Assembly (NCBI GenBank): GCA_963931925.1
Contig: OZ007581.1
Span: forward strand, 16,858,450-16,922,449
Source: Onchidella celtica
Taxonomy: Eukaryota > Mollusca > Gastropoda > Systellommatophora > Onchidiidae
Reading direction: 5' to 3'
Length of the DNA stretch: 64,000 nt
A program made the translations under genes and the position numbers. Below are positions 3,505 to 35,300 of this stretch, in pieces. Every line of letters begins with the position of its first letter. The first letter of the stretch is position 1. The notes under the pieces were generated by a model. The model saw nothing but the letters and a program-made list of their open reading frames with translations. It ran no database searches and had not been told where the DNA came from.

Positions 3505-5655
3505 TCATGACTTATGGCTTCTCATGTGACTGATAAGTCCTATTTTTGCCCTGCAGACCCTTCCGCATAAATGACAAGAGTGCTCCGTTGGTTCAGTACC
3601 ACTGGGCCTTTTCTTGCGCCGTTCTCTTTTTTTGATAGCCTGCTGGACTCTGTCAGCTTCCCATGCTTTGCTGCCTCTGGTAAGGGCCGCCCTCCAATTT
3701 GCACGATCAAGCGAGAGCTTTTCCCACTCACTCACATCAATGGCAAAGGCCTTCAGTGATTGCTTGAGAGTGTCTTTGTAACGTCTCTTTGGGGCCCCAA
3801 CATTCCTCGTTCCATTGGAGAGCTCAGAGAAGAAGATTTGCTTAGGGAGTCTGGAGTCGGGCATTCTGACAACATGTCCTGCCCAACGTAGCTGAATTTT
3901 TTTCAGGTGGCAGAAGATGCTCAATTCCTTGGCACGATTGATGACCTCAGTGTCTGGAATTTTATCCTGCCATTTGATCCTTAGGATCTTTCTAAGGCAG
4001 GCCAGATGAAAGTGATTTAGCTTTCTGGCATGCGATTGGTACACTGTCCAGGTTTCAGCCCCATAGAGTAGGGTGGGAAGGACCACAGCATTGTACACTT
4101 TCAGCTTAGTGTCTGTGCGAATGCCGGCAACATCCCATACTCTCTTTCGAAGCCTGCCAAATGCAGAGCTGGCTTTGCTGATTCTTGAGAGAATTTCAGT
4201 ATCAACACGAGCCGCGGAAGACAGTGTACTGCCAAGATAGGTGAAGTTCTCCGACACCTTCAGAAGACTGTCATGGACTTTGATATTTGGGGTCACAGGA
4301 TACTTGTCGTCTGGAGTAGGCTGATGGAGCACTTCCGTCTTCTTTGTGCTTATTGTGAGGCCAAAGTTGTCACAGGCACTAGAGAACTTATCAACACAGT
4401 TTTGCATGCTATCCTCATCGTGTGCCAGAAGTGCACAATCATCAGCAAATAGTAGGTCACAGACTTGAGTACTTTTGGTTTTGGTTTTTGCCTGAAGTTT
4501 CCTGAGGTTGAATAGACTGCCATCAGTTCGGTACTTGATGCTTACCCCTTGAGAAGGAGAGCTAAAGGCTTCTTGTAGCATTGCAGAGAACATGATGCTG
4601 AACAGAGTTGGGGCTAAGACACAACCCTGTTTTACCCCATTTGTGACAGCAAAGGGCTCTGAAACACTGCCGTTGCTTTTGACTGCAGCTTGCATGCCAT
4701 CATGAAACTGGCGCACTATTGTGATGAATTCGGGTGGACACCCAAACTTCGCCAAGATTTTCCAGAGGCCTTCACGACACACTGTGTCAAATGCTTTTGT
4801 GAGGTCAACAAATGTGATATACAGCGCTTTATTTTGTTCCATGCATTTTTCCTGAATCTGTCTGGCAGCAAAAATCATATCCGCCGTTCCCCTCTCTTTA
4901 CGAAAGCCACATTGGCTCTCGGGAAGCAAGTCATTTGACGAGAGGTGATCAAGAAGGCGATTCAGAAGCATTCTTGCCAATATTTTGCCAGCAATTGAAA
5001 GTAGAGAGATTCCCCGATGGTTGTCACAGACTTGGCTGTCCCCTTTGTTTTTGTACAGATGGATGATTGAAGCATCTTTGAAGTCCTGTGGCAGCTTCCC
5101 TGCTTTCAACATATGATTGAACAACTCGGTCAACCTTTCAATAAGCTTTTCTCCACCGAAGGCATACACCTCAGCAGGAATTGAATCCACGCCTGGTGAT
5201 TTGTTAAAGGACATCTGATTTGTGGCAGTTCGGGTCTCATTTGCTGTGAATGGCTTGGCAAGAGCTGCATTAATAGGAGTCTGAGGGAGGAGGTCAATGG
5301 ACTCAGTATTTATATTTGATGGCCGATTTAGCACACCTCCGAAATGTTCTGCCCAACGCTGAATTATGGCATTCAATTCAACAATGCGTGTTGAACCATC
5401 TGTCGCAAGAAGTGGCGTAGTGCCAGAGCGGGATGGTCCAAACACAGCTCGGAGGCTCTCAAAGAACTTTCTAGTGTTGTTTGTGTCGGCATATTTCTGA
5501 GTTTCTCTTACTCGCTCTTCAAGCCAGTCATTTTTCATTTTCCTCAGCTTCTTCTGGAGTACACCCTTACATGCACGCAGTGCATCAGCTTTTGCTGTGG
5601 AAGAGGGGTCACTGCAGTGAGCTTGGATGAGACTATTTTTTTCTTTGATGAGCAC
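3505..5655 (-). CDS. LINE reverse transcriptase with C2H2 finger (downstream frame, copy B)
   Basis: A 716-codon frame beginning at an internal Met; the frame is open further upstream to about 5755. RT landmarks in order are LYKNKGDSQVCDNHRGISLL, GFRKERGTADMIF, VDLTKAFDTV, NGVKQGCVLAPTLF and the catalytic LLFADDCALL. The thumb/C-terminal region carries FTYLGSTLS, LLYGAETWTVY, CLRKILRIKWQDKIPDTEV and RWAGHVVRM, typical of RTE-like LINEs. The last 25 residues form a C2H2 zinc finger (C-x2-C-x12-H-x3-H), a plausible nucleic-acid contact. The frame itself has no internal stop. It is separated from its endonuclease only by the 5-bp insertion near 5756-5765. Confidence 0.9.
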   Translation of the reverse strand: MLIKEKNSLIQAHCSDPSSTAKADALRACKGVLQKKLRKMKNDWLEERVRETQKYADTNNTRKFFESLRAVFGPSRSGTTPLLATDGSTRIVELNAIIQRWAEHFGGVLNRPSNINTESIDLLPQTPINAALAKPFTANETRTATNQMSFNKSPGVDSIPAEVYAFGGEKLIERLTELFNHMLKAGKLPQDFKDASIIHLYKNKGDSQVCDNHRGISLLSIAGKILARMLLNRLLDHLSSNDLLPESQCGFRKERGTADMIFAARQIQEKCMEQNKALYITFVDLTKAFDTVCREGLWKILAKFGCPPEFITIVRQFHDGMQAAVKSNGSVSEPFAVTNGVKQGCVLAPTLFSIMFSAMLQEAFSSPSQGVSIKYRTDGSLFNLRKLQAKTKTKSTQVCDLLFADDCALLAHDEDSMQNCVDKFSSACDNFGLTISTKKTEVLHQPTPDDKYPVTPNIKVHDSLLKVSENFTYLGSTLSSAARVDTEILSRISKASSAFGRLRKRVWDVAGIRTDTKLKVYNAVVLPTLLYGAETWTVYQSHARKLNHFHLACLRKILRIKWQDKIPDTEVINRAKELSIFCHLKKIQLRWAGHVVRMPDSRLPKQIFFSELSNGTRNVGAPKRRYKDTLKQSLKAFAIDVSEWEKLSLDRANWRAALTRGSKAWEADRVQQAIKKRERRKKRPSGTEPTEHSCHLCGRVCRAKIGLISHMRSHKS

Positions 5656-5747
5656 TTTGATTTCATTATCATTATCATTGAACCAGTCCTGGTGCTTGCG
5701 GACAGGAAAACCAACTGTGCTGCTGGCGCAAGAGTGTACAGTCGTAT

Positions 5748-6737
5748 TTAGGTCAGTCCAGTCCAGCTCTGTTCAATGTTCTCAGGGTCAAAAGTCACGC
5801 AATCCAATTTTGAGGAGAGTTCTGATGAGAGCTCGCTCTGTTTCTCAGCTGAGCAGAGTTTTGAAACATTTAGGCGTTTAGGTGGCGCTTTCCCTTGAGG
5901 GCGTCTATTGCGCCTCAATGTTAGTCTGAGCTTACAAACAATGAGTCTGTGGTCAGTTCCACACTCGGCACCACACATCGCCTTTGTTACAAGGACATCC
6001 TTTCTGTCAGTCTTCCTCACAATGACATAGTCTATGAGATGCCGATGCTTTGAGCGGGGATGCATCCATGACGTTCTGTTTCTCACGGGGAGACTAAAAT
6101 TTGTGTTGGTAATGAACAGGCCAAATTCAGCGCACAAAGTAAGTAAGCGCAACCCATTGTTATTGCATGAACCAACTCCATGAGGGCCCAAAACATTTGG
6201 CCACGCTGAGATTTCGGAGCCAACCCTAGCATTGAAGTCCCCCAAGAGAATCAGCTTATCAGCTGCCGGGACAGAGCATATGACAGATTCTAGATCAGAA
6301 TAGAACTTGTCTTTGGCTTCATCTGGGTTTGTCATGGTGGGCGCATATGCGCTAATGAGGGTGGCTGACTGGCTTTTCCCAACTGGGATCCTGTGTGTCA
6401 TTAGCCTGTCATTTATTTCAATTGGCATGGACTGCAAGTTTCTGACAAGGTCATTTTTAATTGCAAACCCAACACCATGCTGTCTCGGTTCGACTGCACC
6501 CTTGCCTTTCCAGAAGAAGGTGTATCCACCACTGAGCTCTTTGAGTTGGCCACTATCAGGGAGTCTGGTCTCACTGAGTGCCACTATGTCCAGGTTGTAC
6601 CTGCTGAGCTCAATGGCAATAAGTGCAGTGCGTCTTTCCGGGTTGTTTGAGTTGTCCTGTAGTGTGCGTATATTCCAGGCTCCTAGCCTGAGTAAGCTGA
6701 ATTTCTTTTTGTTTCGACCGCAAAAAGTGATCCCCAC
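5748..6737 (-). CDS. LINE AP-like endonuclease (upstream frame, copy B)
   Basis: A 329-codon frame starting at an ATG, MGITFCGRNKKKFSLLRLGA. It contains the endonuclease/exonuclease/phosphatase fold motifs LGAWNIRTL, LSETRLPDSG (catalytic Glu), LGDFNARVG (Asp-x-Asn) and GTDHRLIV (Asp-His). In a working element this domain makes the first-strand nick that primes reverse transcription. It stops at 5748-5750 just after NIEQSWTGLT. A 5-bp unit is duplicated there; reading it once brings the frame into the RT frame. The protein is therefore truncated before the RT in this copy. Confidence 0.88.
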   Translation of the reverse strand: MGITFCGRNKKKFSLLRLGAWNIRTLQDNSNNPERRTALIAIELSRYNLDIVALSETRLPDSGQLKELSGGYTFFWKGKGAVEPRQHGVGFAIKNDLVRNLQSMPIEINDRLMTHRIPVGKSQSATLISAYAPTMTNPDEAKDKFYSDLESVICSVPAADKLILLGDFNARVGSEISAWPNVLGPHGVGSCNNNGLRLLTLCAEFGLFITNTNFSLPVRNRTSWMHPRSKHRHLIDYVIVRKTDRKDVLVTKAMCGAECGTDHRLIVCKLRLTLRRNRRPQGKAPPKRLNVSKLCSAEKQSELSSELSSKLDCVTFDPENIEQSWTGLT

Positions 6738-7604
6738 TGGTCGTGGTATACCAGTCAGGGTGATGTGAAGTGGGCTTTCTTTAGGGCACCTTTTCTAGCC
6801 CCTTCCTCAGTTGAGGTGAGCAGTGCTATCCTTAAATAAGGCTGCTCAGCTACTGTGGGTGCTGCCTCCCCACGCCTCCACTTCAATCGACGATGAAGCG
6901 ACCATAGCCCACAGCCACCAACGTGTAGGTCTGTGCTAACAGCTTCCAGTCTATCCAAACCTGCTGCCACCGCACTCGCCCATCGCCGTTGGAATTTTGA
7001 GAGGAAAGAAGACGAGACAAAGATGAAAGAAGACGAGGTGAGTGTTAAGACTGGCGCAAAGAATTTGTTTTTAGTGAGAAAGAGCTGCGCAAACATCAGA
7101 CTCACTCTCTCGCCTGGACACAACTTATCCAAGTGGCAAGAAAGGGTCAAGACGACTGGAAATGTATCCAGGTGCAGGAGGATGCCAGAGGGACAGTTAT
7201 ATTGCCTGACCGGCTGCCTGTAGGCTACTCCACAGCCTCGCAGTCCCAACTGACTAGGGTGAAAGACCCAAACCAAAGAACACCAATACTGGTGGATGCT
7301 CTGTGTCACGATATCCAGGCCAGAGTGACGGTATATTGCCATCTGCCCTATCAATCAACCACTGGCCTGCTGCCGCCAGCTTCGAAGCTGCGTCCGGGAA
7401 GTTTGCTCAATTCTTCGTCTGTGATTTAGGCAAACAAGCCTATGACCACACCGCTACCGGGGGCCAATATGAAGGACTCAATTACTGAGGGTCACATTGT
7501 GCCCTAGCATGTGGCCGTTGGGTTAGATGAAACCTCCTCCGCCCTGGCCGTTTGCACCGACAGGTGCACGCCCACTGATACCATGCTAGCGTACCAGTTC
7601 ATGA

Positions 7605-14051: not shown

Positions 14052-14410
14052 TAATACCAGAGAGTATAGCCTAGAGAGATACTTCCGTCAAACCGCGAAA
14101 CTAGGTCGCTGCGGTAAACAATACCCATGTAGTAGAACTGAAAGAGACCGCCGTCACCAAAGATAGTGTGCATATATCTGTTTACTGTGGTTTGATCATA
14201 TTTTTGGACTGATTGAAACTAGAATCTATTTAGGGTCGTTTGTAAGCTCTTAGTCTCACGCCCCGTGGAAACGCACAAACCGGTATTGTTTACCGCAGCG
14301 ACCTATTTTCCGCCCCATGCTAACAATGGTTTCGCGAAGACTTCCGTGTCGCGCAGTGCAACTCGACCAATGGTGAAACCTCTCTATACATCTATACTCT
14401 CTGATAGTGA
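14052..14410. mobile_element. Inverted-repeat element (MITE-like)
   Basis: Two sets of matching inverted arms. Outer arms are AGAGAGTATAG at about 14060 against CTATACTCTCT at about 14392. Inner arms are a 23-bp perfect inverted match at about 14103-14125 and 14281-14303. A CTTCCGT-plus-CGCGAAAC block also appears on both sides. The centre is unmatched. No ORF. Superfamily unknown. Confidence 0.65.
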
Positions 14411-15197: not shown

Positions 15198-15421
15198 TTA
15201 AGCCGGTCCCAGTGTAGCTCTGTAGGTCTGTGTCTGCGCTAGCGCGAAGCACGCTGGCCGCGTGTCACCCCAGCCGCACATTGGGTTATCGTCTGCGGCG
15301 TCTGTAACTGACAGGGCTGCCTTGCTATTTTTAGGTACCGTGTAACCGCGGCCCCCCCGCAACAGGCTCAGTTGACCTAGATTTCGAATTGAGTGCAGTT
15401 GGAGTGAGTATCAGTATCACA

Positions 15422-18117
15422 ATGGCTTCATCATCAGACGAAGATGTTGGAATCGGTCTTGCACTGTATTTGCTTTCGGATGGAAAAAGAAAGCGACGCT
15501 TTCGCGCACACCCAATAAACAAAGAGAGAGAGCACAGAGGGGTCATGTCCAAGCTGTATCCTCAACTGTGTGATGATGAGGATAAATTTCATAATTATAC
15601 TCGGATGAGCAGAGTCGCTTTCGAGGAGCTCTTGACTGCTGTGCAAGATGATATTCGAAAGCCAGACACCAACTTTCAGCGGGCAATACCCCCACGAGAA
15701 AGACTTCTATTGACCCTTAGGTAAGTTTTTGTTAAGTTTTGGTTTAACGCCACATGCAACACTGTAAGGTCATTTACGAGGCAGAACCTTCGAATTTAAG
15801 GTACATCTCCAATAGGACGGGGTCGGAGCCATGAAAACTCCGAAAAAAATCTCAGTAAACCTCCACGGATTCGAACACAGGATCTCCTCGTCAAAAGGCG
15901 GGCGCACTACCGCTCGGCCATCGACACCCCCTTTGTAGACTACTTTCGGCCATTCCAGGTTTCATGTAATGATAAATAACATTGTTTTGGTTTGACTTGT
16001 GTGCTTATCAGCTTATTTTTGTTGTTGTTTCTTTTGTGTGTGTGTGTGTGTGCATTATACTGTCCCCGCGGTTTTATGCAATTTTATGCAATAACTCAAA
16101 ACACCCAAAATCGACTTTGATGCCGAATCGAAGAATCAGGTCACAAATCTGCAATGTCTTGTTAGTTATTAATTAATAATATTGAAGCTATTAAATGCTG
16201 TGATTAGTATGAATGTTAATTTGAATATATAAGCAATTTAAAAACTGCATAGCAATGATATTCTGGGAGACTGATAAAAACAAAAAAGTCTTGCAAATAT
16301 ATCTTTTAATAACACAAACAATTTAACAAAAAATCAAATATACACAATAGTAGCACTAGCAGCATTTTCATCTTCCTCCTCCTCCACCATCTCAAACAAT
16401 AAATTGTAAATTTTGCGGAGGTAGGTCCTTTTCCTCCTACCCGAGAGGGTGGCCATGTGAGGCAGAAGGCCCCTGAGACTCTCGAGGTCTTCTTTGTGCA
16501 TTGAGTTTGATGCACTGTCTTGCATCTTTGCTTCCAAGAAGCGGGCCGCCTTCTCCTTGAAGAGGTCATCTTTTTCGGGAGTAGGGGTCGCTCTCTTCCG
16601 CTGTTTGTTGACAGGGGCAGGTGTGGCTGGTTCCAGAGGCTGTGACTCTAGCTCGTCAGATGGTGAAGGGGATGGGGATGATGTGCTGGGAGTGGTTTCC
16701 TCAAAGTCACCCTGGCTGCCACTCACCGAGGCGCCCTCCTCCCACAGTGGCTCAGGCTCGGAGGAGCCTAAATTGCCCAGCATAGAGCCATGCTGCATGT
16801 GTGGCTCCAGGAAGCTCATCTGTTGAGCCAGGTAAAACTGGGGCTTCTTTTTCCCAGGTGCACCTGAGCCACTGGGTAGATTCTGGCTTGACCGACTTCG
16901 GCTGTATGAGCCTCTCAAATTCTGCCACCTTTTCTTGGCAGAATCAGCTGAAAGTGAAAGTAAAAAGATGTTATGTAGAATAATATTTTTTTTTAACCCA
17001 TAAGTTGGCAGAATCATGGTTTACATGGGTACAGTCAGTCCCTGTCAGAATAGATAATATGGTACTACAGGGAGTGTTGCAATTGAGGGAATGGGTTGTG
17101 CTGTAGAGAAGTAAGGCTGGAGCATGATATATATATGTATCATGCAAACACAAATTTAGGAACTTTCAACATCTTTTTTTCCCTTCCAGATATCTTGCCA
17201 CTGGAGAAAGTGCAAGGAGCTTGCACTACCAGTTCCGAATGGGCGACAGCACTGTGCGCAGCATTGTGTACGACACATGCGAATGTCTCTGGCAGAAACT
17301 GTTGGACAAGGAAATGCCTCGCCCTACTGAGGAGACTCTGAAGGAAGAAGCAAATGCCTTTGAAAACATTTGGCAGTTTCCCCATTGTTTGGGAGCAGTG
17401 GATGGGAAGCATATAAACATTGAATGCCCCCCCAACTCTGGAAGTGCTTTTTTTAACTATAAAAAACATTTTTCTATTGTTTTGCAAGGTGTGGCTGACG
17501 CAAAAGCCAACTTCCTTGCAGTTGATGTAGGGGATTCAGGAAGGCACTCGGATGGTGGGATACTGAGACATTCTTCCTTTGGTAAGGCTTTAGTACAGCA
17601 GCAGCTGCCTCTCCCACAACCTGATGAGATTATGGGAGAAGTCTTGCCATACGTGTTTGTGGCTGATGAGGCGTATCCACTTCACCCAAACATCATGAGA
17701 CCCTTTCCTGCCAGAGGGCTTGATGACGTACGTAGGATTTTTAATTACAGGTTGTCGAGGGCACGGCGGATTGTGGAGTGTGCTTTCGGCATAATGGCAC
17801 AGAGGTGGGGGATTTTAAAGACAACTCTGAGGATCAACCCTGACAATGCTAGGAAAGTTGTACTAGCGTGCTGCATACTCCATAATTTTGTGCGGAGACG
17901 ACAACCTGCGAGTGTGGATTCTGCTGCCGAGGAAGCATCAACAGATGAAAACCTCTTCCAGCTACAACACGGTACAGAAAGGTCCATGTCCAGTACCGGA
18001 AGGCCAACCCAAGAGGCAATGGTAGTGCGAGAGAAATTTGCAAATCTCTTCATGACAGGCCTTGCTGTCCCCTGGCAGTATGAAAGGGCTCATGTTCGCC
18101 CTGCTGCAAATGCATAA
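15422..18117 (+). CDS. PIF/Harbinger DDE transposase (HARBI1-like), two exons
   Basis: Exons 15422-15720 and 17190-18117 join AG|GTAAGT to TTCCAG|A in frame to give 408 residues. The start is the ATG of MASSSDEDVG; an upstream in-frame TTG is not needed. Residues 1-100 are the N-terminal region with RMSRVAFEELL and PPRERLLLTLRYLATG. The DDE nuclease core (DDE_Tnp_4) follows: GAVDGKH (Asp about 171), AVDVGDSGRHSDGG (Asp about 212/221), VADEAYPL and VECAFGIMAQRWGIL (Glu about 296), then CCILHNFVRRRQ. The length is typical for HARBI1-like proteins, and all catalytic motifs are present. The family needs a Myb/MADF partner for DNA binding and nuclear entry, which is the minus-strand gene interleaved with it. 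Confidence 0.92.
15726..15931 (-). mobile_element. tRNA-derived SINE in the transposase intron
   Basis: Minus-strand element starting GGGGGTGTCGATGGCCGAGC, with A-box TGGCCGAGCGGT at 15920-15909 and B-box GTTCGAATCC at 15877-15868, both near consensus. The head resembles a tRNA of the Leu/Ser class. The body ends GTGGCGTTAAACCAAAACTT, a 3' end style common to molluscan SINEs. Its 3' tip abuts the GTAAGT splice donor at 15721, which is retained. Confidence 0.82.
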
Positions 18118-18659
18118 ATAAAGTATGTACATATGTACAGATCTATAAGTATAATATGTATTTTTTCTTTTCAATATCAAAAATGTTTAAGCATATTATG
18201 CATCTGTGAAAATATATGATGAGTAAAGCGCCTTGAGCTCATTTTTCTTTCTGAGGGAAGGCTGCAGTAACATTATTATTATTATTATTATTATTATATT
18301 TATTAATATATTATAAGCATACAGTCGGGTTTGGATAAAAAATCATTTAAGCTTAAGATAATTATTTTTTTTATTGGTTAAAATAAAAGTGTTGCCAGGT
18401 CCTGTTCTGACTTTCTGAGCACAGTTGAAAAATACTGAGATTGTAGGCCTAAATAAACTAGCTTTGAAATCTCACCTGTGCAACCCGCGCAAGAGGCTAC
18501 TGCTTTCCATTCTGCTTCAACCTTGAAGCGGTCCTTGTACCCTGGTTCCCTCGGGTTGTATAGGACAGGATGTTTTTTAACTTCCTCAATTAGTCTTTCA
18601 GTGAAATCCCGATCAGACATTGACTGGGTACCGGTAGCCATTCTAAATTTTCCTGACAT
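16334..18659 (-). CDS. MADF/Myb-SANT-like Harbinger partner protein, two exons
   Basis: Exon 18659-18476 ends at CACAG|GTGAG and exon 16947-16334 begins after TTTCAG. They join in frame to give 265 residues. Residues about 18-95 form a MADF-type trihelix: FTERLIEEVKKHPVLYNP, AEWKAVASCAGCT, then ADSAKKRWQNLRGSYSRSRS across the junction. A Ser/Pro/Glu-rich linker and a helical tail (KEKAARFLEAKMQD, MATLSGRRKRTYLRKIYNLL) follow. That layout matches the second protein of Harbinger elements, which binds element ends and recruits the transposase. The start Met at 18659 is the first in frame; an upstream noncoding exon is possible. The two exons straddle the transposase's second exon on the other strand. 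Confidence 0.88.
18215..18298 (+). repeat. LINE/SINE-type 3' tail with (ATT)n
   Basis: AAAGCGCCTTGAGCTC followed by an ATT microsatellite at about 18272-18297. It resembles the 3' end of the CR1-type LINE at 25768-25836, where AAAGCGCCCAGAGCTTG is also followed by ATT repeats. Confidence 0.55.
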
Positions 18660-18972
18660 AAAAAAGAAAAATATTTAACCTCAGGCTTATCTGGTGGAAC
18701 TGCTGTTTTAGTGTAACTACAATCTTAAGTCTAAAAGCTAGTACATTTTAATTGTTTTATCTTTACCATGTTACCAAAATGCTATCCTGTATTCATACAT
18801 ATTTCTTTTTTTGACTACGTTTAGTTCCATTTTATCCTAGGAATTTGCAATGGTTCTAACATTAAACGTTGTACACAATAAATTGGCATACATGTATGCG
18901 TCATACTGCCATCATCATAAATTTAATCAAATGTGCCTTGGCTTTTTATTATACATGACATATTAAATTTTG

Positions 18973-19185
18973 CGCGCGTTGTGTGTGTGTGTGTGCGCGC
19001 GCGCTCACCCGTGGGCGGTAGGGATGAATGTAGTCCGAACAGCATGGATGGATAACCGCTACCTGTCTATGTGTATTATTATGTAACTACATGTGTGTAC
19101 TATGTACTATGAAACACCAAGCCAATGTGCCAGTGACTGGACAATAAACGTTGATCTTATCTTATCTTTTCTTATCTTAAATTAA
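18973..19185. repeat. GT/GC dinucleotide tract and (CTTAT)n tail
   Basis: A GTGTGTG/GCGCGC tract at about 18978-19003, and a TCTTAT-type tail at about 19153-19180 following GGACAATAAACGTTG. Related tails occur at 51690 and 55690, so this is probably the 3' end of a third repeat family inside the Harbinger element. Confidence 0.6.
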
Positions 19186-19845
19186 CTAATTCCAGTCTCC
19201 TCAATTCTTCTACTTTCATCCTTACCTAGCCCTTGCTTCGAGATTTGTCTATGGACACTGCACACCAGATACTTTTTATTAGAGATTTGGATAGATTCTG
19301 TAGTGAATACTTTAAAATTAAATGTAGATCAAGATCAAGATCAGATTTATCTATCTAGAATCTAGGCCTTTATAGAGATTATTCCTCTGCATCCCAATTC
19401 CTGAACTATCAATCTAGATCTAGATTCTAGAACCAGAGGCCAGAAGCACACAGTCCACAGTTTTCACTACATGTGAAAAGTAGGTCAACCTTTCGATTGG
19501 AAATTTTAATGTATGATAAAGTGCATTTCTTGGGATTTTGTGGTCAGGTGTCGATTCTAGCACCAATATCTAATAGTAAAGCACCTAATAATACTTACTT
19601 CTTGCTGATTTTGATGACTTGTGAAGGATTTCGGTAGAAAATGCTCAAGAAGCGAGGCTGCTCTGACAGACGTGTTTTACGACACAGTTGAATGGGCCGT
19701 CTGACGAGTCGTGCAAGCCCGCTGGTCACAGACGAACCACACAGCGACGCTGTTCAAGAACACAGCTTGTATCGTGTTCATTTGCATGGTGCGTGCGAGG
19801 TCAGCTAGACTACAGAGCTACAGAGCTACGCTGCTTCCAGCCTTA

Positions 19846-23300: not shown

Positions 23301-26300
23301 ACTTTACTATTAGTACTTTTTTTTCTGTAGTATTATAAGTATTTTTCTGAAGGCCGCGTTCTTTCTCACCGCTTTGGAGAGGTGCAAAACAGCCGCCGTT
23401 CTTTCTCACCGCTTTGGAGACGTGCAAAACAACCGCCGTTCTTTCTCACCGCTTTGGAGGGGTGCAAAACAACGTTGTTGTTGGCCGCGTTCTTTCTCAC
23501 CGCTTTGGAGGGGTGCAAAACAACGTCGTTGTTGGCCGCGTTCTTTCTCACCGCTTTGGAGAGGTGCAAAACAACCACCGTTCTTTCTCACCGCGTTGGA
23601 GAGGTGCAAAACAACCGCCGTTCTTTCTCGATTTTCATTTTGCTACAAATTCGATCCTCGAGTTTTCTCTTCTGGATTTGTTTTTTCCTTCAAGCGTTTC
23701 GGAATTTGAGATTGAAAAACAAGTGTATGTTGACTCGTCAGTCTTTCAACGCTCGTGAGAAGCCAAAACTTGCAAACGAACTTCCAACCTTCATAACAAA
23801 ACTGGTGAAATTTCAAGTTTTAAAATTGAGTGTGCTGCCGTTCACAAATGAATCAGTGAAGATTGACGAGATCAACTAATCAAGTGCAGATGTGTGACTC
23901 TGTGTAAGCCTAGGCTCCTTTGTATCGTTTATAAACTGCGGGCGAAAATGAAGTATAGTCACAACAATGTGTTTGCGCATGCGGTAAAAGCGGTGTGAAA
24001 AAACGCTGGTTTTTTTTACACCGCTGAGAAGCGGTGCAAAAGGACAGTGCCTTTTCTGAAGCATGCTGTTTTTTTCCAAAGTGGGAAAAAATTAATTACA
24101 TCCAGACTTAACCAAAGCCCCGAACACTGATGTCCTGAAAGAGTTATCGACCAGGCTCAGGGGAGTCAAAAGCTCTTCATGTACCATTTGTTTCATGCCT
24201 GTATTGTGCCTAATAAATAATAAAGAAAAACTAAAACATTCATGGATATTCAGAGTGTCAAAAAGATGTGTCGTTCTGTCCCCTGAGTTGACTTAAATTT
24301 TCTTTTATTCCTTCTGAAAAAAACGACTCTTGATCAAAACATGTTGAAAAATTATAGACCCGTCTCAAACCTTCCTTTTCTTTCAAAAATCCTTGAAAAG
24401 GTGATATTACAACAACTAATGTGTCATTTGAGAAATAATGACCTGTTGGAACCATTTCAATCTGCTTACAGAAGTAACCACAGTACTGAAACTGCACTAT
24501 TAAGAATCATGAATGACATATTAGTAAAGGCAGATTCTGGAAATATTACTCTGCTAAATTTGTTGGATCTATCAGCAGCGTTCGACACCATCGATCACGA
24601 AATCCTGCTCAGAAGGCTAGAAACATCGTTTGGAATCAGAGGGGTCGCCCTTAAATGGGTCGAATCTTACCTGTCAAATCGCCACCAATTTGTTGTAACC
24701 AACAAAATAAGATCTTTTTCTTATGCGCTTCAGTATGGCGTACCACAAGGCTCAGTGCTTGGTCCTATTTTGTTTACTATCTATACTATTCCACTTGTAC
24801 ATGAAATAAAGAAATTTAATTTACAATATCATTTCTATGCTGATGATACCCAGCTCTACAGTTCTGCCTTGCCATGCGATGTTGACAGCCTTCTGCAGCA
24901 GGCTGGAAACTGTATAACAGAAATTAAAAGCTGGATGAACCAAAACAAACTGGCACTAAATGAGGATAAAACTGAGGTTATTTTATTAGGCCGTGAGCGG
25001 GTTCTGCAAGAAGTGGACAGAACTGAGATGATAATTGGCACTAATTCAATAGAAATTTCAAAAAAAGTAAAAAACCTAGGGGTTTACATTGATTCAAATC
25101 TTTCTATGTCATCTCAGGTTAGTCACCTCATTCGTATTCTATACATGGAAATCTGGAAAATTGGTAAAATCAGACATCTTATTTCAACTGAAACTGCGGC
25201 TGTTTTAGTAAATTCTTTTGTACTTTCAAAGCTTGCCTATTGCAACTCCCTTTTGGCTGGAATTTCACAAAAAAATATTAGAAAACTCCAAATTGCTCAA
25301 AACAACGCAGCGAGACTTGTTTTGAAGAAAAAGAAAAGAGATTCAGCACTGCCACTTCTGCAGAGTTTGCACTGGCTGCCAGTCGAGAAAAGAATAATGT
25401 ACAAATTGTCATCCATTTGTCACAAATGTGTCAATAATACTGCTCCATCGTACCTAGTTGATTTAACTGATTACTATGTTCCATCTCGTCAACTAAGATC
25501 ATCATCTGACACTACAAAATTGAAAGTACCTAAAATGAATCTGTCCACTGTAGGAGAAAAGTCCTTTTCATTTCTTGGCCCTACCATCTGGAACACTCTT
25601 CCAAAGACAACCAGGGAAATTAATGACATTGGTTCTTTCAAACGCCATCTGAAGACCCATTTCTTTCAGACAAACTAGGCTAGGTGTTTTTCGGCAGCAA
25701 CAATAGTAAATATTTTTGAATTTCTTTTGTGTATGCGTGTGTGTGTGTGTGTGTAAGAGTTTGTTAAAGCGCCCAGAGCTTGTCATCGACGGGGTTGGGC
25801 GCTATATAAATGCAATATATTATTATTATTATTATTTTCTTTCATGCTGTTTATAGCTGGTCAAGGAAGAAGAGCTTGTTTCTTTTCCATCAAAGTCGCA
25901 AAAGGAATAGTATGATGGCTGAATATGTTGTTTCAAATGATAATTTTAAACTGCTCATATTTCTAGTGAATTGTGGTAAAAGTTTAGGTACCCCAAAGTG
26001 ATTTTGAAAAGGGGCTATATCAATAAGTTTTGTCTTCCAATGGATAGATCTCAGTATTCGAAGAATTTTGATACCAAATTTGTCTCTGTATCTCCATATT
26101 TAAGAAAGTTGTGTCATTTTGAATGTTTAAAAATTTGTGGTAATTGTGTCATCAGCCGCGAAGCCAACTTTGGCCTCCCATAAAATGACGGTTTATTGAG
26201 CCATGACATTAAAAATTCTCAGTATCAAAGTCAAGAGGGTGTACACTATGCTTATTTTTTTTGCGAGGGGTACAAATAAAATACAAGCATCTCATTTTAC

Positions 26301-29300
26301 ATTTTTTAGTCAGCAAACGACACCTGACGTAATTTTTTTGTGAACTCTAACAGGGGAGACAAAAATTATGTTTTTGTTTTTTTTTTAATTGAAAAGAAGG
26401 TCAGACGTGTTACCATTGACTTAGCACTGAATGTCCGATAAAGGTGACGAAATCAAGCATTGGATGGGTCTCTAAAAACAGTTGGCGCTGTGATCCCAAA
26501 CATGCCCCATGTCTCATTTTGGCATCCCCTTACAATACAAAGGCTGGGGTTTATTTGCATATTATTTTGCTCCTGATCAATAAAAGTTTCCGCTAGTTTC
26601 TTGGTCTACAAACTTTTCAACAAATAATTTTCAAAAGAATGTCAACTTAAAACGAAAAATACATTGAATTAAACCTCATTTATCTGGCTTTCTGTGTGAG
26701 TTATTTTCAAACACGTGCGCTACATCAGATTGGCCCGCCGCGCCCCTTTGTTATGAAGGGGGTCAATTCGGTAGGCACAGCACAGTAAAAATGGCAAGAC
26801 TATGTCCTGTTCAAGCTATAAAAACACATAGCTAAACATTTTGTCAGAGGAAGGATTGAACTTTATTTTAATGTAGGATACATGGCGTTTCACATAAATA
26901 CACAGCAGTAATAGCCTTGTAATGTTGGCCTAAAATTATGCTAAAACTGGATTTCGCCCCTTTAGCGGTCCAGTTTGGGGTACCTAGTAATAGGTCAATG
27001 AAACTTGTTGTAATTTATTTCTTTTTTGTCTAATAATAATTAATATGAACCCTTTCAGTGCCTTTAGCCGTTACATTGACATATATACATGAAGTATACT
27101 TTCTTTGTAGTGGATTGTTCACTGACATATCTTGCCACATTGATTTATTAGAAGCTGTCTTACAAAGTCTAAAATCATGTCAAACCTTTTTTGCATGTTA
27201 TGTCTAACCTCTGTACCCCATACAAGGGCGTATTAAGAATTTTAATTTTTGTAAACATACCATTCACAAATACGTTAAGTGAAAACGAATCAGCCATTTA
27301 AAGTAGTACTCCTCGTGAAAATATGCCTGTGGACAATGCCCCACAGGGGGAATTAGCAGTGGTAGGGAAAATGTTAAGTGTGCTATCTTTGTCTTCCTGT
27401 ATTTTGTAGGAGCCAGAGGGACTCCAGTGGAGGTGCATCCAGAATCTAGCAATGCACAGTACACTCATTGCTTGGCCAAGAACGAGCCCATACAGCTGAA
27501 GGATCCATTTAATTTTTTCCTATCTCAAAGCCAGGACCTCATTTTGATGTCCTGGACTCGGATCAAGCCTGGCCAAAAGGAAGAAAGATTGTATGAGTAT
27601 GTCCAAAACGAAGGGAAAATGATTTGCAGCAAGTGTCAAGTCTTTGAGAAGTGGGGACTGCAGGTAAAACATGATTTTTCCTCTTCATCCATATATTTTG
27701 TCATTCCAGCTTTTTATCTCATCATAGTCCTTGTCTTCATCTTTTACCTCTTCTTCTTTCATTTGATTTTTTTTTTTATCCTTGTCTTCCATTGCCCTAT
27801 TAATCAGTAAATCTAGTGATTCAGTTAGGCCCATGGTTGGAATCATGAGGATCCTGTATAAGAGTTAACAATAAATGCAGTTTTGATTGTCATGTATGGT
27901 CGTCTCTTTCCACCCCTGGGACTAAGTTAAACTCAGATTCACTAAGAAAAACTTTTACACTTTAATGCATTATCCCGGGACATCAGGATGCTGTTTTAAA
28001 CGACATAGATAACACGAAAGACAGACATGATCATTATACAATAGTTAATGACAATGCAGGTATGATCATCATACAAGAATGCAGATATGATTGTCTTGTA
28101 TGAGTTGAAAAGAAATGTTCAGAAAGAAATGCGGGTATGATAGTTACATCATAAGAGATAGATCTAGCAAGAAATGTTTGATTGCCATTTCAGGAGAAGT
28201 TTAGTTGCCTCTGCTGAGTCAGAGGAAGTAATTATTGAGCTTCAGATCCCAGCCAGAAATGTTTGGAAAGCCACTGGTTTTCTCACAGTTAGCAATATTT
28301 AGGAAGTTAATTTTGTCTGGTCGATTGCGGTATTTCCCAAAATTCATTCAAAGGACTCATCGTGAAAACATCCTCTGCTTGAACAAATTAATGATCAATG
28401 GGGAAACCAGGAATGGAAGAAGAGTTAGAAGAGAAGAATTACCACTGTAGTGGGAACATAATTACTCTGAGACTTTTCAGAAGCACTTACAATTAGTAAA
28501 ACCATATAAGCCAATATACAGCCTAGTAAAACCATATAAGCCAATATACAGCCTATGTCACTTTTCATTGTTTTGAGGAAAGCAAATGAAATTGTTTGTC
28601 AAGTAGAAAAATTTATCATATAATATAGCATCATTAGTTTAGGTGATTATTGCCTAGGAATGGAAGAAGAGTTAGAAGAGAAGAATTACCACTGTAGTGG
28701 GAACATAATTACTCTGAGACTTTTCAGAAGCACTTACAATTAGTAAAACCATATAAGCCAATATACAGCCTAGTAAAACCATATAAGCCAATATACAGCC
28801 TATGTCACTTTTCATTGTTTTGAGGAAAGCAAATGAAATTGTTTGTCAAGTAGAAAAATTTATCATATAATATAGCATCATTAGTTTAGGTGATTATTGC
28901 CTGTTTTTGCATACGTGGCAGTGTTGTTTGGTACAAAGTTAAATGAACACGAAAGTTTAGATCAGTTCAGTTTTGTCCATTAATTAAGCACAGTGATTTT
29001 AGTGACGATAGTTATTTTGAACTATTATTAGTATTAATGTTTGATTTTGAATCACACTTTTATGATATATATCCAATCTAATTTAAGAAAGTGAACTTAC
29101 TTCAGCTTAAAAAATAGTGGCGGTAGTATTTTAATGTGGTATAATTTTGATGTTTTTTGTATTTTTTTTGTTCAGTGCTACAGGCTTAATGACAGTTTCA
29201 ATAATTACAAAGTGAATTTTCTCAATCTGACCCAATAGCTTTTGTTGGTTGTATTAAAGTTTTTGGGAAATTTTTTTTTTTTTTAAAAAGTTGTCAGGTT

Positions 29301-32300
29301 GATAAAATATTACAATTATCTCTTTTTGTCCTCCTTTTAAAAGCCAATGGCACGGGAGACTACATTTGGCACACATTCAGTTTGGTGGGAAGTCTTGTCT
29401 CAGAAATGAGTGCGCATGTGAGATCCGCCGTAAGACTAGATTTTATAGTGGTGAACTCCCTAGACCAGAGAGGAAAAAGGGGAGTTTGGCAGCAAGGTTT
29501 ATCTCTGGCAGTGCCAGGTTCCTCACCTAGTTTATTTATATAATTTTGTAAACAATTAGCCTATGATATTAGCACAGTAGCAAATTGTCAGTTTCATGAT
29601 GAAGGGGGGAATTGATATCAACAGCTGCACAACACAGAGGCGAAAGCTGGACTTCTGTGTGATATAGGGGTGAACCACTAAAATCGGTGTTGCAAGAAAT
29701 TTGGTTTTGAAAATTTTGTGCTACTCTTATCATTGATTTCTCGCCTTTTCGTCATACTATATAACTTAAAAAATTATGTGAGATTTAACAAAGTTGCTCA
29801 TGTTGGGTAAAGCCCCCCGCAATGTACTTTTGATAACCACAAAAAAGTATATATATATATATATATATCTCAAATTTTGACCTTTTCACCCCTTTTTCAT
29901 ACAGATAACTTAACAAGGGGACACGGGTGGTCAAGAGGCAAGGTGCTCGCCTCTCGTGCCAAAGGTGCTGGGTTCGAATTCTGGCGGTGCAAGCATGCTT
30001 GAATTTTGGGATTTTTCTCATATTTTCCTGTCCCTGATCCTATGGTAGATAGGGTCTAGGATTGAGCACCTAGACTTCTCAAATAAGGATGAAAAGCTCG
30101 GAGGGCCTGTGTGCATATTAACCCTTTCGTGTTTCTATTCTGGCCACTTGTGAAGCGCTCTAACTCTCAATCTTCTTTTACCAAAGATTTCGATCACCGG
30201 TGATCGACGCTTGTATCCCTCATTATTTTAATGAAAAACTGTTCAAAACTGCTTGAAAATCGTTTGTTTTGAAAGGCGAAACTGGTTTTTAACGAAAACA
30301 GGTGAAAAAATTGTAAAACGAAGCCTTTTAAGTGAATAGAAAGAAAGAGAAATAAGATGATCGCGTCTCTTCGGTTCTGCCGCCATCTTGGATTTTTATC
30401 TACTGCTGAGTTACCATCATTGTCAACAAAGCGCAATAAAATGGCTTCAAACAATCTTTCTGATGAAGAAATTGAATATGAGTCAAGCGAGGATGAAGTC
30501 TGGGATGAAGAAGACGTCTCAGATTCCAGCTCTGATGAGAATGAAGCCCCATCAACCGGCCGGAACATACGAGAACGAAGGTGAAGGTTTTTTCTTCTTT
30601 AGCCTATGTAATCATAACACAAACATTTTGGATCTAGATCTAATTACAGGTATCACAGGTAATTATATTTATTGTAGTTGGCTCCTTCAATCATTGCTGA
30701 GCACCAGTCAGTCAGGATTTAGGCTTTGATCTGCTTTTTTATTTGTTCAGGCTGATTACAACTTTCCACGTACTGCACCTAGTAACCAAGGCCTATGTTT
30801 TGTTTACTGTGGTTACCATCTCTTGTCAGTGGCTTCTTGTATCTACTATTATGATCTTCTAGAGCTAGATTTCAACATAATTTTAGGTATATTGTATTAT
30901 ATTGCTACACATTATTTCTATTAATTTTTTATTATTAGGTTTGGGTATAAATGATTCTTGTAACACATTTTTGTTTCTTTTTCTATTCCTCATATATAGC
31001 TTTGGAGACTATGACAACTGGTCTAGGACGTCCGTCCCAAACTTTAACCCTGAACGACCACCCGGAGCCCACTTCCCCGATTCCATGACAAGAGGGTCCA
31101 GAAGAAAGTACCTGACACCATTCACTATTTTCCAGCTGTTCATCATGTGTTGTGCAGCAATTATGTTCATGGACAAATGAGAACGCCAGGGAGGTGGGAC
31201 CGACAAAAGTCAGCATGTACAAAGGCTGGGTTCCTCTAGAAGAAGAAGAGTTTTATCGTTTTATTGGACTGCTTATGTACATGGGAATGATTCAAGTACC
31301 AGGAGTAGAAATGTATTGGAGTAAAAAGAGTCTATTCAATGGCCTTTGGGCGCGATCATTTATGACAAGATTTCGATTTCAACAAATTATGTGTTTTTTG
31401 AAAGTATCCGACAGAAAAACTGAGAAACAAGGAGACAAGTTATGTAAAGTTCGTTTTTTGTTTGATATTATGAGGAGAAAATGCATGAATCTTTATCAGC
31501 CAGGTTTGAATATTTCTGTTGATGAGAGGATGGTAAAAAATAAAGGAAGGTTTTCATTTAGGCAATATATACGTGACAAGCCTACTAAGTGGGGCATGAA
31601 GCTTTGGGTTTTAGCAGATTCTTTGTCTGGTTACACTTACAATTTTGAGGTTTATTTGGGAAAGACAGGGTCTGGGAAAGTTAGTGGAAATGGTTTAGCC
31701 TATGAAGTTGTTATGGATCTCTTGAAATTTCTTTTAGCTCGTGGCAATAAGGGTTACCGTCTTTTTGTTGATAATTTTTATTCAAGCATTCATTTGTTTC
31801 TTGATCTGTTGAAGAAAGGGATTTTAGCTTGTGGTACTATTATTTCCAATAGGAGGGGATTTCCAGCAGAATTGAAAAATGTGAAACAGTGGGAGAAACA
31901 GAATGAGAGAGGGGCAATGAGATGGTGTAGACAAGGGAATATTTTAGCACTTCAGTGGAAGGACAATAAAACTGTGTCTGTGATTTCTACCATGCATGGG
32001 GCAAATGAATTTTGTATGGCTAATTATAGGAGAACTAAAACAAATGGAGCTTTTCAAACTTTGGAACTTAGACAACCTAAAGTCATAACAGATTATAATA
32101 TGCATATGGGTGGAGTTGATAAAAGTGACCAATTACTAACCAAATACAACATGTTGCGTAAGACAAATAAATATTGGAAGACATTGTTTTTTCATTTTCT
32201 AGATATTGCCAGAGTAAATAGTTATATTTTGTTTCAGGACTGGAGAAAGCAAAACCCTGATTTGAAAGAACTAGATAGAAGTAACAAGTTTAATCAGCTT

Positions 32301-35300
32301 GCATTTACAGAAGAACTAATCAGGCAACTCGGGAAAATTGACGACTTTGCAGATGTTCCAACAGCCTCAAAACCAAAGATTTTTACTAATCACCCAATTA
32401 TTCCTGATATCGTTCCAACTTCTCAGAGAAAGAACTGTAAGCTATGTTATGATAAATTACATGTTGAACAGAAAAGCAGATACTTCTGCAGAACTTGTAA
32501 TGTTTTTCTGTGTCTGCATGACACACGGAACTGTCTTGTAGACTACCACAAAATATAATTTTATACATATTCATCATTGAATATAAGCCTCAGATGTTTG
32601 TCTGTACATGATGAAGTTAATCCTGATTCTGTTTAAAATTAAGGTTGTTTCCCTGTATAAAATTCAAATGAATAACAAAATATTTATATAACATGACAAG
32701 TTGTACAACTTTTTCCGTTGTGGTTTGTGGCAGTTCTCGGCACAAATAGTTCACATATATGCATTTCAATTTTTAAAATATTTCAGTCATTTACTGACAG
32801 AATGTCTTGAAATTTGGATATATGTTGTAAAATTGGATGTAGTTTGTTAAGATAATAAAGTTTTTCAGTTTCCTTCAAATACTTTTTTTTTCTTCTATCA
32901 CAGTGTCCACTGTGGTTGTAAATTTTTGTACTTTTCAAATTTTTTTTTCCATAAAATTTGGACCCCAGATCTTTTTATTGTCATTATAATTAGTCAAAAC
33001 TATCATCAAATGGCAGCTAATTCAACTTGCTACTCTATCTTAAATAGAAAAAGAAATAGGGCTCTTTATCTGTCGGCAACATTCAGTTTCCATAAATATG
33101 CCATAAAAACCAAAGAAGATTGAGAGCTAATGGCCGACTTCTGGCTGCGCGGCTGCCCTGATTTGTTTACATTTTTCAGCCCTATGGCCGCCGCTGCTGC
33201 ATGCCTTCACTGAATTGGAAATTGTAGCCGCCATGTCGCATCTATGATAATGAATTTTGGCATACTTATTGAGAAATGAATGAACTAAAAGAGGAACCTA
33301 TTTACATCAGAATGCCGAAATGTGCTTGTTGGTTTTGTGAACATGAAATGCTGAACGGGGATGTATGACATTACCTCTGAGACAGAGGGACAATACACGT
33401 ATTACACACTATTGCATCGCATCCCCTTTGTTATCCAAGCATACAACACTACCAAAACAAAGGCACCACACTAGTACATGCATGTACTATGCACACAAGT
33501 GTGTGTCGATCAATACATGATGTAGGCTTAGAGGGAGGAATAGGCCTGTTGGATGACCATGTGTAATACAATACATTACTTGCAGGCCTAACCCACGCTT
33601 TACGGTTCAAACTGGGTCAGTGGGCATCTGAAGATTACCTAGTGATATCATTTACGATTTATAGCTATTCATGTACTGTTCTTCCTCTCAAAATTGTATA
33701 CAAAATGGGGGTACACTGGCCGGTCGGATACAGACGGATTGAACACATAGGGGCATTATAGACAAAGCCGGATTCGGCCGGGTTGAACAAATCGCTGGCC
33801 ACATTGAAAGCGGTTCGGCCGGGTTAAACAGGAAGGGGTTAACATACCTTGGCAACTAGAAATTGAGAAGAGTGGGCTGAACAGGCTGCTGCCTGGGCAA
33901 AATTAAATACCCCCACACACACACACATAAAAAAACAACTGCCAACTGGTGCTGCACTGTGGCGATGATGTGTCTGCTCCACTTGTAACTGGGCTGCTGT
34001 GACACTAAGGCAATTTCCCAAATAGACTTTAAAAAAGTATACAAAATACAGAAAATGAAAATAAGCATTCTCCTTTTCGTTGTATAGCGGTTCTTATCTA
34101 TTCGCCCCTTCGTCATGAAATTGATGACAATATGAAATAAGCACTTGGTTTCTGAATTCCAGAACAAAGAAAAACAACAGAAACATGATTTATACCTTAT
34201 AAATGAAAATTATTTCGATAACGTTTTTCACAGATCAACAACGTCAACTTTGAAGACTCGGCCACATATAAAGCCGTAGCATTGAAGGCCAGCGGCAGTG
34301 AAACTAAAGTTATCCAGATTGACGTAGCAGGTAAGTGGTCAGAAAGTGGTTTCTACAGTGGTCACTGTGAAGTGTTTTCCTTTTTACAGGGCTGTCAGAG
34401 TTCCGCGGATACGCGAAAATCCGGGATTGAGAAAGGTCCGGTCATCCGCGTTGAAATGTCAGTTTCTTTGCTATCCAGCTACAGCCAGGTACATTGTATC
34501 GTGAACAGAACTGTAATCAAGGGATTTTAAAATAACCCGTTCATCTACAAAACTGCAAGAATTTTTCAAGTCAAACGGGGAAGTTGTTTGGTTTTACATA
34601 CTCATGTCATGAGATAAAGTCTTAGGCATTGGACAGAAGTTGATCGCGCTTGCGTGAACAGCAAATTGCTAGGCCGAGTTCAGGGGTTGGCTTCATTATC
34701 CACTGACAGCCCTGTTTTTAGTAATTTTAGCTATGTGGAAAAAATTCCATCGCTATTTTCAACTTTATAGCACATTTTTGTTTTGTTTCGGCTTTTTTTT
34801 AAGGTAAAAATTAATATTTGATTCAAATGAACAACTGTGTCAACCTGTTCAGTGAACACTTTGAACAAGAGTGAGAACTGCGCCTGGTTTTAAATCTGTG
34901 ACGGTGAGTACTAGTGTGAAGAGAAATTCTATGTGTTTACAGAGGGTGATAAGATTATTAAACCTCACCCTGTGAGGGGCGGCAATTGTCGTTATTTACT
35001 CGCAAGCGCTCACGCTGCACGGGCGGCAAAAGTAGGGAAGGTCAAGCTGACCGCGCCACACGCAAGCCGTATTTTCACGCATCAGGTCACTGACCTTTTT
35101 GAGACGTAACCACCGTGTTATTGTTCACTCTATCTCTTCTAAATCAAACGCATTGTGACATGGACATGTTAACCAGTGAACCACTGGTCGGAATCACAAA
35201 GACTAAGCTTTCAAAGGCTCTCCCCACACTTTCAAAAGATGTAACATCGACATGCGAACTGTTGCTCAACAAATTTGCAATATTATCTCATTTTCTCACA

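Follow-up and report, generated by a model that had tools for sequence, protein, structure and literature searches.

Can the two genes of one transposon each be threaded through an intron of the other, and is such an arrangement an accident of one copy or a property of a lineage? The question is raised by 64,000 nucleotides of DNA from the gastropod Onchidella celtica (GenBank assembly GCA_963931925.1, contig OZ007581.1, positions 16,858,450 to 16,922,449; the window), in which a first-pass annotation had described a plus-strand Harbinger transposase gene and a minus-strand MADF gene, each holding the second exon of the other within its intron. We found this mutual interleaving as described (Table 1): the exon order along the DNA is transposase exon 1 (plus), MADF last exon (minus), transposase exon 2 (plus), MADF exon 1 (minus). 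Both splice models are in frame at consensus GT..AG sites, giving open frames of 408 aa for the transposase and 265 aa for MADF, and the complete domains that had been claimed were recovered with Pfam, namely DDE_Tnp_4 (4.7e-33, 158/158 positions) on the spliced transposase and MADF_DNA_bdg (3.5e-18, 84/84 positions) on the spliced MADF protein. The donors match CAG/GTAAGT at 8 of 9 positions in the transposase gene and at 7 of 9 in the MADF gene. Because the MADF domain is split by the MADF intron, the MADF splice is needed for the domain. The DDE domain is confined to transposase exon 2, and the transposase splice is crossed only by a sub-threshold HTH match (residues 90-137); a BESS match on the MADF protein was likewise sub-threshold.

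The MADF model needs one amendment, since the splice at 18476/16947 stands but the start of the gene probably lies elsewhere. A minus-strand acceptor occurs at 18652 and a 5' splice site, AAGAA/GTAAGT, at 19599, and in a related family (L029) a short 5' coding exon, ATGGCAAG, is spliced to an acceptor matching the one at 18652 in the window. Together, these sites and this comparison make it probable that MADF has an additional 5' exon and that translation begins at the ATG of position 18641, for a product of about 259 aa, instead of at 18659. In the window, the coding exons of one gene stay clear of those of the other, with 358 bp between the transposase stop and the MADF exon. If the polyadenylation-like signals AATAAA at 18117 (plus) and ATTAAA at 16310 (minus) mark the transcript ends, the predicted pre-mRNAs would overlap by about 1,840 nt; that both genes are spliced and expressed at the same time is a prediction. 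Inside the transposase intron, a stretch at 15740-15970 looks by eye like a tRNA gene on the minus strand, with a box B-like TTCGAA. It is present in 16 full copies of the element and is perhaps a SINE; ARAGORN reported no tRNA in it.

Table 1 Features of the interlocked element in the window (window coordinates)
Feature	Position	Strand	Evidence or remark
Target site duplication TTA, left	15198-15200		Flank comparison of copies
Left terminal inverted repeat	15201-15231	+	Inverted-repeat arms 15210-15231 / 19812-19833, 91%
Transposase exon 1, coding part	15422-15720	+	Donor TTAG/GTAAGT
Transposase intron, phase 2	15721-17189 (1,469 nt)	+	Holds MADF exon 2 on the opposite strand
MADF last exon (exon 2)	16334-16947 (614 nt)	-	Second half of MADF domain, linker, weak BESS-like C terminus, stop
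MADF intron, phase 1	16948-18475 (1,528 nt)	-	Encloses transposase exon 2, which is on the plus strand
Transposase exon 2 (DDE domain) and stop	17190-18117 (928 nt)	+	AATAAA at 18117
MADF exon 1, first half of MADF domain	18476-18659	-	Donor CAG/GTGAGA; start codon 18641 or 18659
MADF 5' untranslated exon, putative	19599-19800 (ends at 19599; 19800 nominal)	-	Donor AAGAA/GTAAGT and comparison with L029
Right terminal inverted repeat	19812-19842	-	Paired with left arm
Target site duplication TTA, right	19843-19845		Flank comparison of copies

The inverted terminal arms and the comparison of copies delimit an intact element of 4,642 bp (15201-19842), with 24 of the 34 outermost terminal bases matching between its two ends. 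TTA or TAA stands on both flanks of all 17 full copies (the window and 16 others), and both sides are the same in 14 of them; in the other three (L011, L024 and L027) the two sides differ at the middle base of the duplication, one reading TTA and the other TAA, which might mean that copying of the central W of the 3-nt stagger is not always faithful. An intact-frame DDE_Tnp_4 transposase, a MADF second gene, terminal inverted repeats and a 3-bp TWA duplication place the element in PIF/Harbinger, which forms the PHIS superfamily with ISL2EU, Spy, Pangu and Nuwa and combines this type of transposase, a Myb/SANT/MADF second gene, inverted repeats and this duplication. It is apparently a young, autonomous DNA transposon. 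Membership in NuwaI, NuwaII or Pangu was rejected, as their target sites are CWG, C/TNA/G and ANT, respectively, in the available text of PMC4482050, whereas the element here has TWA with no constant flanking C and G by eye. ISL2EU was rejected as well, because its YqaJ exonuclease partner is absent, the partner being MADF, and because the tree described below separates the two. The usual side-by-side gene layout of PIF/Harbinger, which is not strictly defining, is replaced by interleaved exons. The accessible parts of the literature describe two-gene coding in PIF/Harbinger (PMC9710019; PMC4482050), with the second ORF upstream or downstream of the transposase in Medicago (PMC2213677), and these parts mention no interleaving of exons, whereas the element in the window alternates exons on opposite strands.

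To see whether the layout is conserved, as the first-pass annotation had proposed, other copies were sought in the genome (1.14 Gb in 43 contigs). The search with transposase exon 2 gave 128 scored matches out of 1,211 candidates, so that the counts are lower bounds, and at least 18 of the 128 are identical in protein, the window included. Sixteen of the 17 further near-identical copies could be read whole. Over 4,641 bp, 13 of these show no difference from the window, and the other three share one SNP, at 18787. The seventeenth (L015) runs into N and an assembly gap on its left and was omitted from this count, and a 97-98% copy (L028), which lacks the exon 1 region and carries an insertion and a stop in MADF, was not counted as full. 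The 16 full copies and the window occupy different flanks. Thus, the interlocked form was mobile, and multiplied, very recently; each copy may still make both proteins, or one copy may have served the others in trans. One could still suppose that one gene model is false, or that the copy in the window was rearranged or misassembled, but we find this hardly credible. Near-identical copies at 16 other sites, each with its own TWA flanks, rule out a rearranged or misassembled copy, and the same order recurs in other families. Both genes also differ from those of a family at 57% transposase identity (L029/L030) in the manner of protein-coding sequence, with an excess at third codon positions: 147/105/250 differences at the three positions over 407 codons of the transposase and 106/91/162 over 241 codons of MADF. 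Together with the Pfam matches, this pattern rules out MADF as a spurious ORF.

The interlock is also not private to the family in the window. Among the 109 transposase matches of greater distance, 13 (L029-L041) were fetched and counted as 12 families; with the window they make 13 families at 37-70% amino-acid identity in the transposase. All 12 further families fit the same threading, several of them with damaged frames, and because the order recurs in them, that of the window is not due to chance. All four parts are in view in nine of the 13 families (the window, L029, L031, L033, L034, L035, L037, L038 and L039). The exon order of the window is found in L029/L030 and also in L031, L035, L037, L038, L039 and L040, the last with only the final 18 residues of transposase exon 1 at the edge of the piece (E 0.1-0.2). 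L032 and L036 have the same order with a weak or decayed MADF exon 1, frameshifted and spotted by eye in L032 and weak (E 0.12) in L036. In L035, MADF exon 2 (tblastn E 0.10) was located by eye; the joined protein gives 4.9e-14 for the MADF domain, and the spliced MADF pieces of L029, L031, L033, L035, L038, L039 and L040 all match this domain at 4.9e-14 or better in Pfam. Frames are damaged in the MADF gene of L031 (end of exon 2), L032 and L035 (a stop) and by a stop in transposase exon 2 of both L036 and L039; the MADF exons of L037 do not join in phase as read. A GT donor lies at the same transposase site (LLLTLR^YLATGES) in all 12 families with the site in view. In L029, the last 65 bp of the transposase frame (4932-4996) are antisense to the coding end of MADF exon 1, a coding-on-coding overlap shared by L029/L030.

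A nested subgroup (L033, L034 and L041) departs from the window in detail: the MADF intron that houses transposase exon 2 is a later one, and only the last MADF exon lies 5' of transposase exon 2. That exon is inside the transposase intron in L033 and L034, and the piece of L041 is without transposase exon 1. The two genes of the subgroup are still interlocked. The MADF gene of L033 has four exons, and MADF introns other than the host intron vary between families. On the scale of the genome, MADF exon 2 of the window gave 101 matches, and 55 transposase loci out of 128 have a MADF match within 8 kb. In 55 of 55 cases this match is on the opposite strand and lies upstream of transposase exon 2. 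The identities of these 55 matches fall at 98-100% (19), 56-61% (13) and 41-50% (23). The count covers neither the 73 transposase loci without a MADF match at the sensitivity used nor the 46 MADF matches without a listed transposase nearby, and exceptions to the layout may exist among the 73. Relatives in which the two genes do not overlap, which the first-pass annotation had named, together with a rearrangement of this copy, as what would speak against its reading, were sought within the lineage and found at none of the 55 loci with a nearby MADF match and in none of the 13 families.

Outside the lineage the picture is different. Eight elements for comparison, seven of ISL2EU type and one classical Harbinger (L044), were fetched from the 150 DDE_Tnp_4 matches listed by a Pfam search of the same genome, and all eight have convergent genes lying side by side, which bears out the contrast that had been drawn with side-by-side gene pairs. 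The ISL2EU elements (L042, L043 and L045-L049) have a related DDE_Tnp_4 transposase and, like the element in the window, a second gene on the opposite strand in convergent orientation; however, their transposase is a single-exon ORF, the genes stand tail to tail with no interlock, and the partner is exonuclease-like rather than MADF (YqaJ at 5.6e-17 for the partner of L042, the one scanned, and by eye for the other six). In one of them (L048), the convergent frames end at adjoining bases, 2967 on the plus and 2966 on the minus strand, stops excluded. The single-exon transposase of L044 runs uninterrupted through the position of the intron, and its presumed Myb-like partner is convergent and separate, the scanned piece being without a Pfam hit. 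In a maximum-likelihood tree of the exon 2 proteins, in which L044 with its long branch is the only classical Harbinger, the 13 interlocked families form one group with 98/99 support; the layout changes once on the tree, and none of 500 shuffles was as low. In this sample, therefore, the plain convergent arrangement is the default, and the interlock characterizes one Harbinger/MADF lineage, in which it seems to have had a single origin. Viral contigs scanned for relatives of the transposase gave eight pattern hits and no relatives.

We consider it probable that the window holds a young autonomous element whose interlock arose once in the Harbinger/MADF lineage, from an ordinary tail-to-tail convergent pair, and has been kept as a structural ratchet. 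Two promoters near the element ends would fire inward, with the genes transcribed towards each other. Each pre-mRNA would be spliced on its own strand, each intron would remove the antisense of the partner's exon, and the result would be two separate mRNAs without coding overlap. Besides L029/L030, the coding exons are 11-1,290 bp apart in the nine families measured, and the coding messages would thus be mostly unpaired. The transposase would supply DDE catalysis. By analogy with zebrafish Harbinger3_DR and its Myb-like protein, the MADF protein may bind the element and carry the transposase into the nucleus. For the Harbingers of rice and zebrafish, both proteins are reported to be necessary for transposition, with the Myb-like one delivering the transposase to the nucleus (available text of PMC9710019). 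The simplest route to the interlock that we see would start with a tandem duplication of the central block, made up of transposase exon 2 and the last exon of MADF, after which complementary pieces, one copy of each exon, would be lost; no inversion would be needed, and this route has no relic to show. Once formed, the arrangement would act as a ratchet, as loss of either host intron, or a move of either gene, would destroy the partner gene. Loss of the transposase intron would take a MADF exon with it, which fits the transposase donor kept in every family with the site in view. We think it most likely that the lock was retained because it is hard to undo, and its maintenance would then be neutral rather than regulatory.

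The later-intron position in L033, L034 and L041 records at least one shift of the arrangement. A strict lock would not lead one to expect such a shift, which shows that the topology can move while staying interlocked. The interlock can be read more boldly, as the mark of a whole animal Harbinger lineage defined by mutually threaded genes, which arose once, stayed interlocked despite a change of host intron, and represents a selected device that makes the two-gene unit indivisible and ties the output of each gene to convergent transcription through the other. We regard this stronger reading as unlikely, although worth keeping in view. A separate rival explanation holds that the interlock was selected because both proteins are needed, and internal deletion, capture or recombination cannot remove one gene alone; defective copies would fail outright and no one-gene parasites would form. 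The need for both Harbinger proteins in rice and zebrafish speaks for it, as does the fit of all 13 families to the interlock. However, the products act in trans, and a single-gene copy would gain little, while non-interlocked relatives thrive in the same genome, where the 523-aa frame found in L042, an ISL2EU element, occurs in 35 among the 150 matches listed. We therefore hold selection for linkage to be improbable.

Another alternative to the ratchet is antisense self-limitation, in which convergent transcription through about 1.8 kb would make the pre-mRNAs antisense to each other and, at high activity, would throttle both genes by way of colliding polymerases, double-stranded RNA in the nucleus or small RNAs; on this view, the interlock is kept since it tunes copy number. 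The pre-mRNAs must overlap if the predicted ends are right. The interlock recurs across deep divergence, and L029/L030 have the antisense coding overlap mentioned above; in the other nine families, however, the spacing of the coding exons means that the mature coding sequences are mostly not complementary, and the family in the window amplified to 18 near-identical copies, so that any brake must be weak. Maize MuDR, which belongs to a different superfamily from PIF/Harbinger, offers a comparison. It also carries two convergent genes (mudrA and mudrB) in one DNA transposon and gives rise to antisense transcripts, but an intervening region separates the genes and there is no mutual threading of introns in the available text of PMC3440606. 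According to the same text, MuDR is insensitive to its own and to transgenic antisense RNA, which leaves the element unsuppressed, yet silencing of MuDR accompanied antisense transcripts from Mu killer, and the comparison thus cuts both ways. Antisense pre-mRNA may regulate the pair, in line with the suggestion of the first-pass annotation that it could couple or limit expression, but as the reason for keeping the interlock we rate it as rather improbable, and we prefer the structural ratchet.

To our knowledge, most mutually interlocked gene pairs are isolated examples, for which it is difficult to tell how real and how stable the arrangement is. Nested or overlapping opposite-strand genes of animals are similar in that one gene lies inside an intron of another on the other strand, but in the parts of that literature available to us the nesting is one-way, whereas each gene of the pair in the window holds an exon of its partner and both belong to one mobile element. 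We found no account of interlocked Harbinger genes in the literature searched, which did not extend to Repbase and key subscription papers, where the layout may be carried unremarked. The interlocked layout may therefore be a new form of PIF/Harbinger, although it may be annotated somewhere without comment. Its recurrence in 13 families, with 18 near-identical copies in one of them (17 and the window, one gapped), makes a comparative study possible of the origin of the interlock, its reversibility, and any cost or regulatory effect of convergent transcription, and this bears on how two-gene transposons hold their genes together. It is also a warning for annotation, because such elements will be broken up by gene finders that do not allow two genes to lie in introns of one another.

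The window contains other repeats and mobile sequences. Just outside the element, 14055-14406 is a possible MITE with short inverted arms (14055-14069 / 14392-14406 and 14097-14125 / 14282-14310). LINE reverse transcriptase frames lie within 3505-6794, 24287-25678 and 37125-38255; RVT_1 was matched in Pfam at 1.9e-37 for 3505-5772 and at 1.9e-36 for 24287-25678, and 37125-38255 was recognized by eye, as was an endonuclease-like frame at 5748-6794. An uninterrupted piggyBac-like transposase frame of 480 aa (DDE_Tnp_1_7, 1.4e-80) occupies 31116-32558, a 36-bp tandem array of about 46 copies extends over 42552-44221, and a 247-bp unit is repeated twice with 100% matches at 28409-28902.
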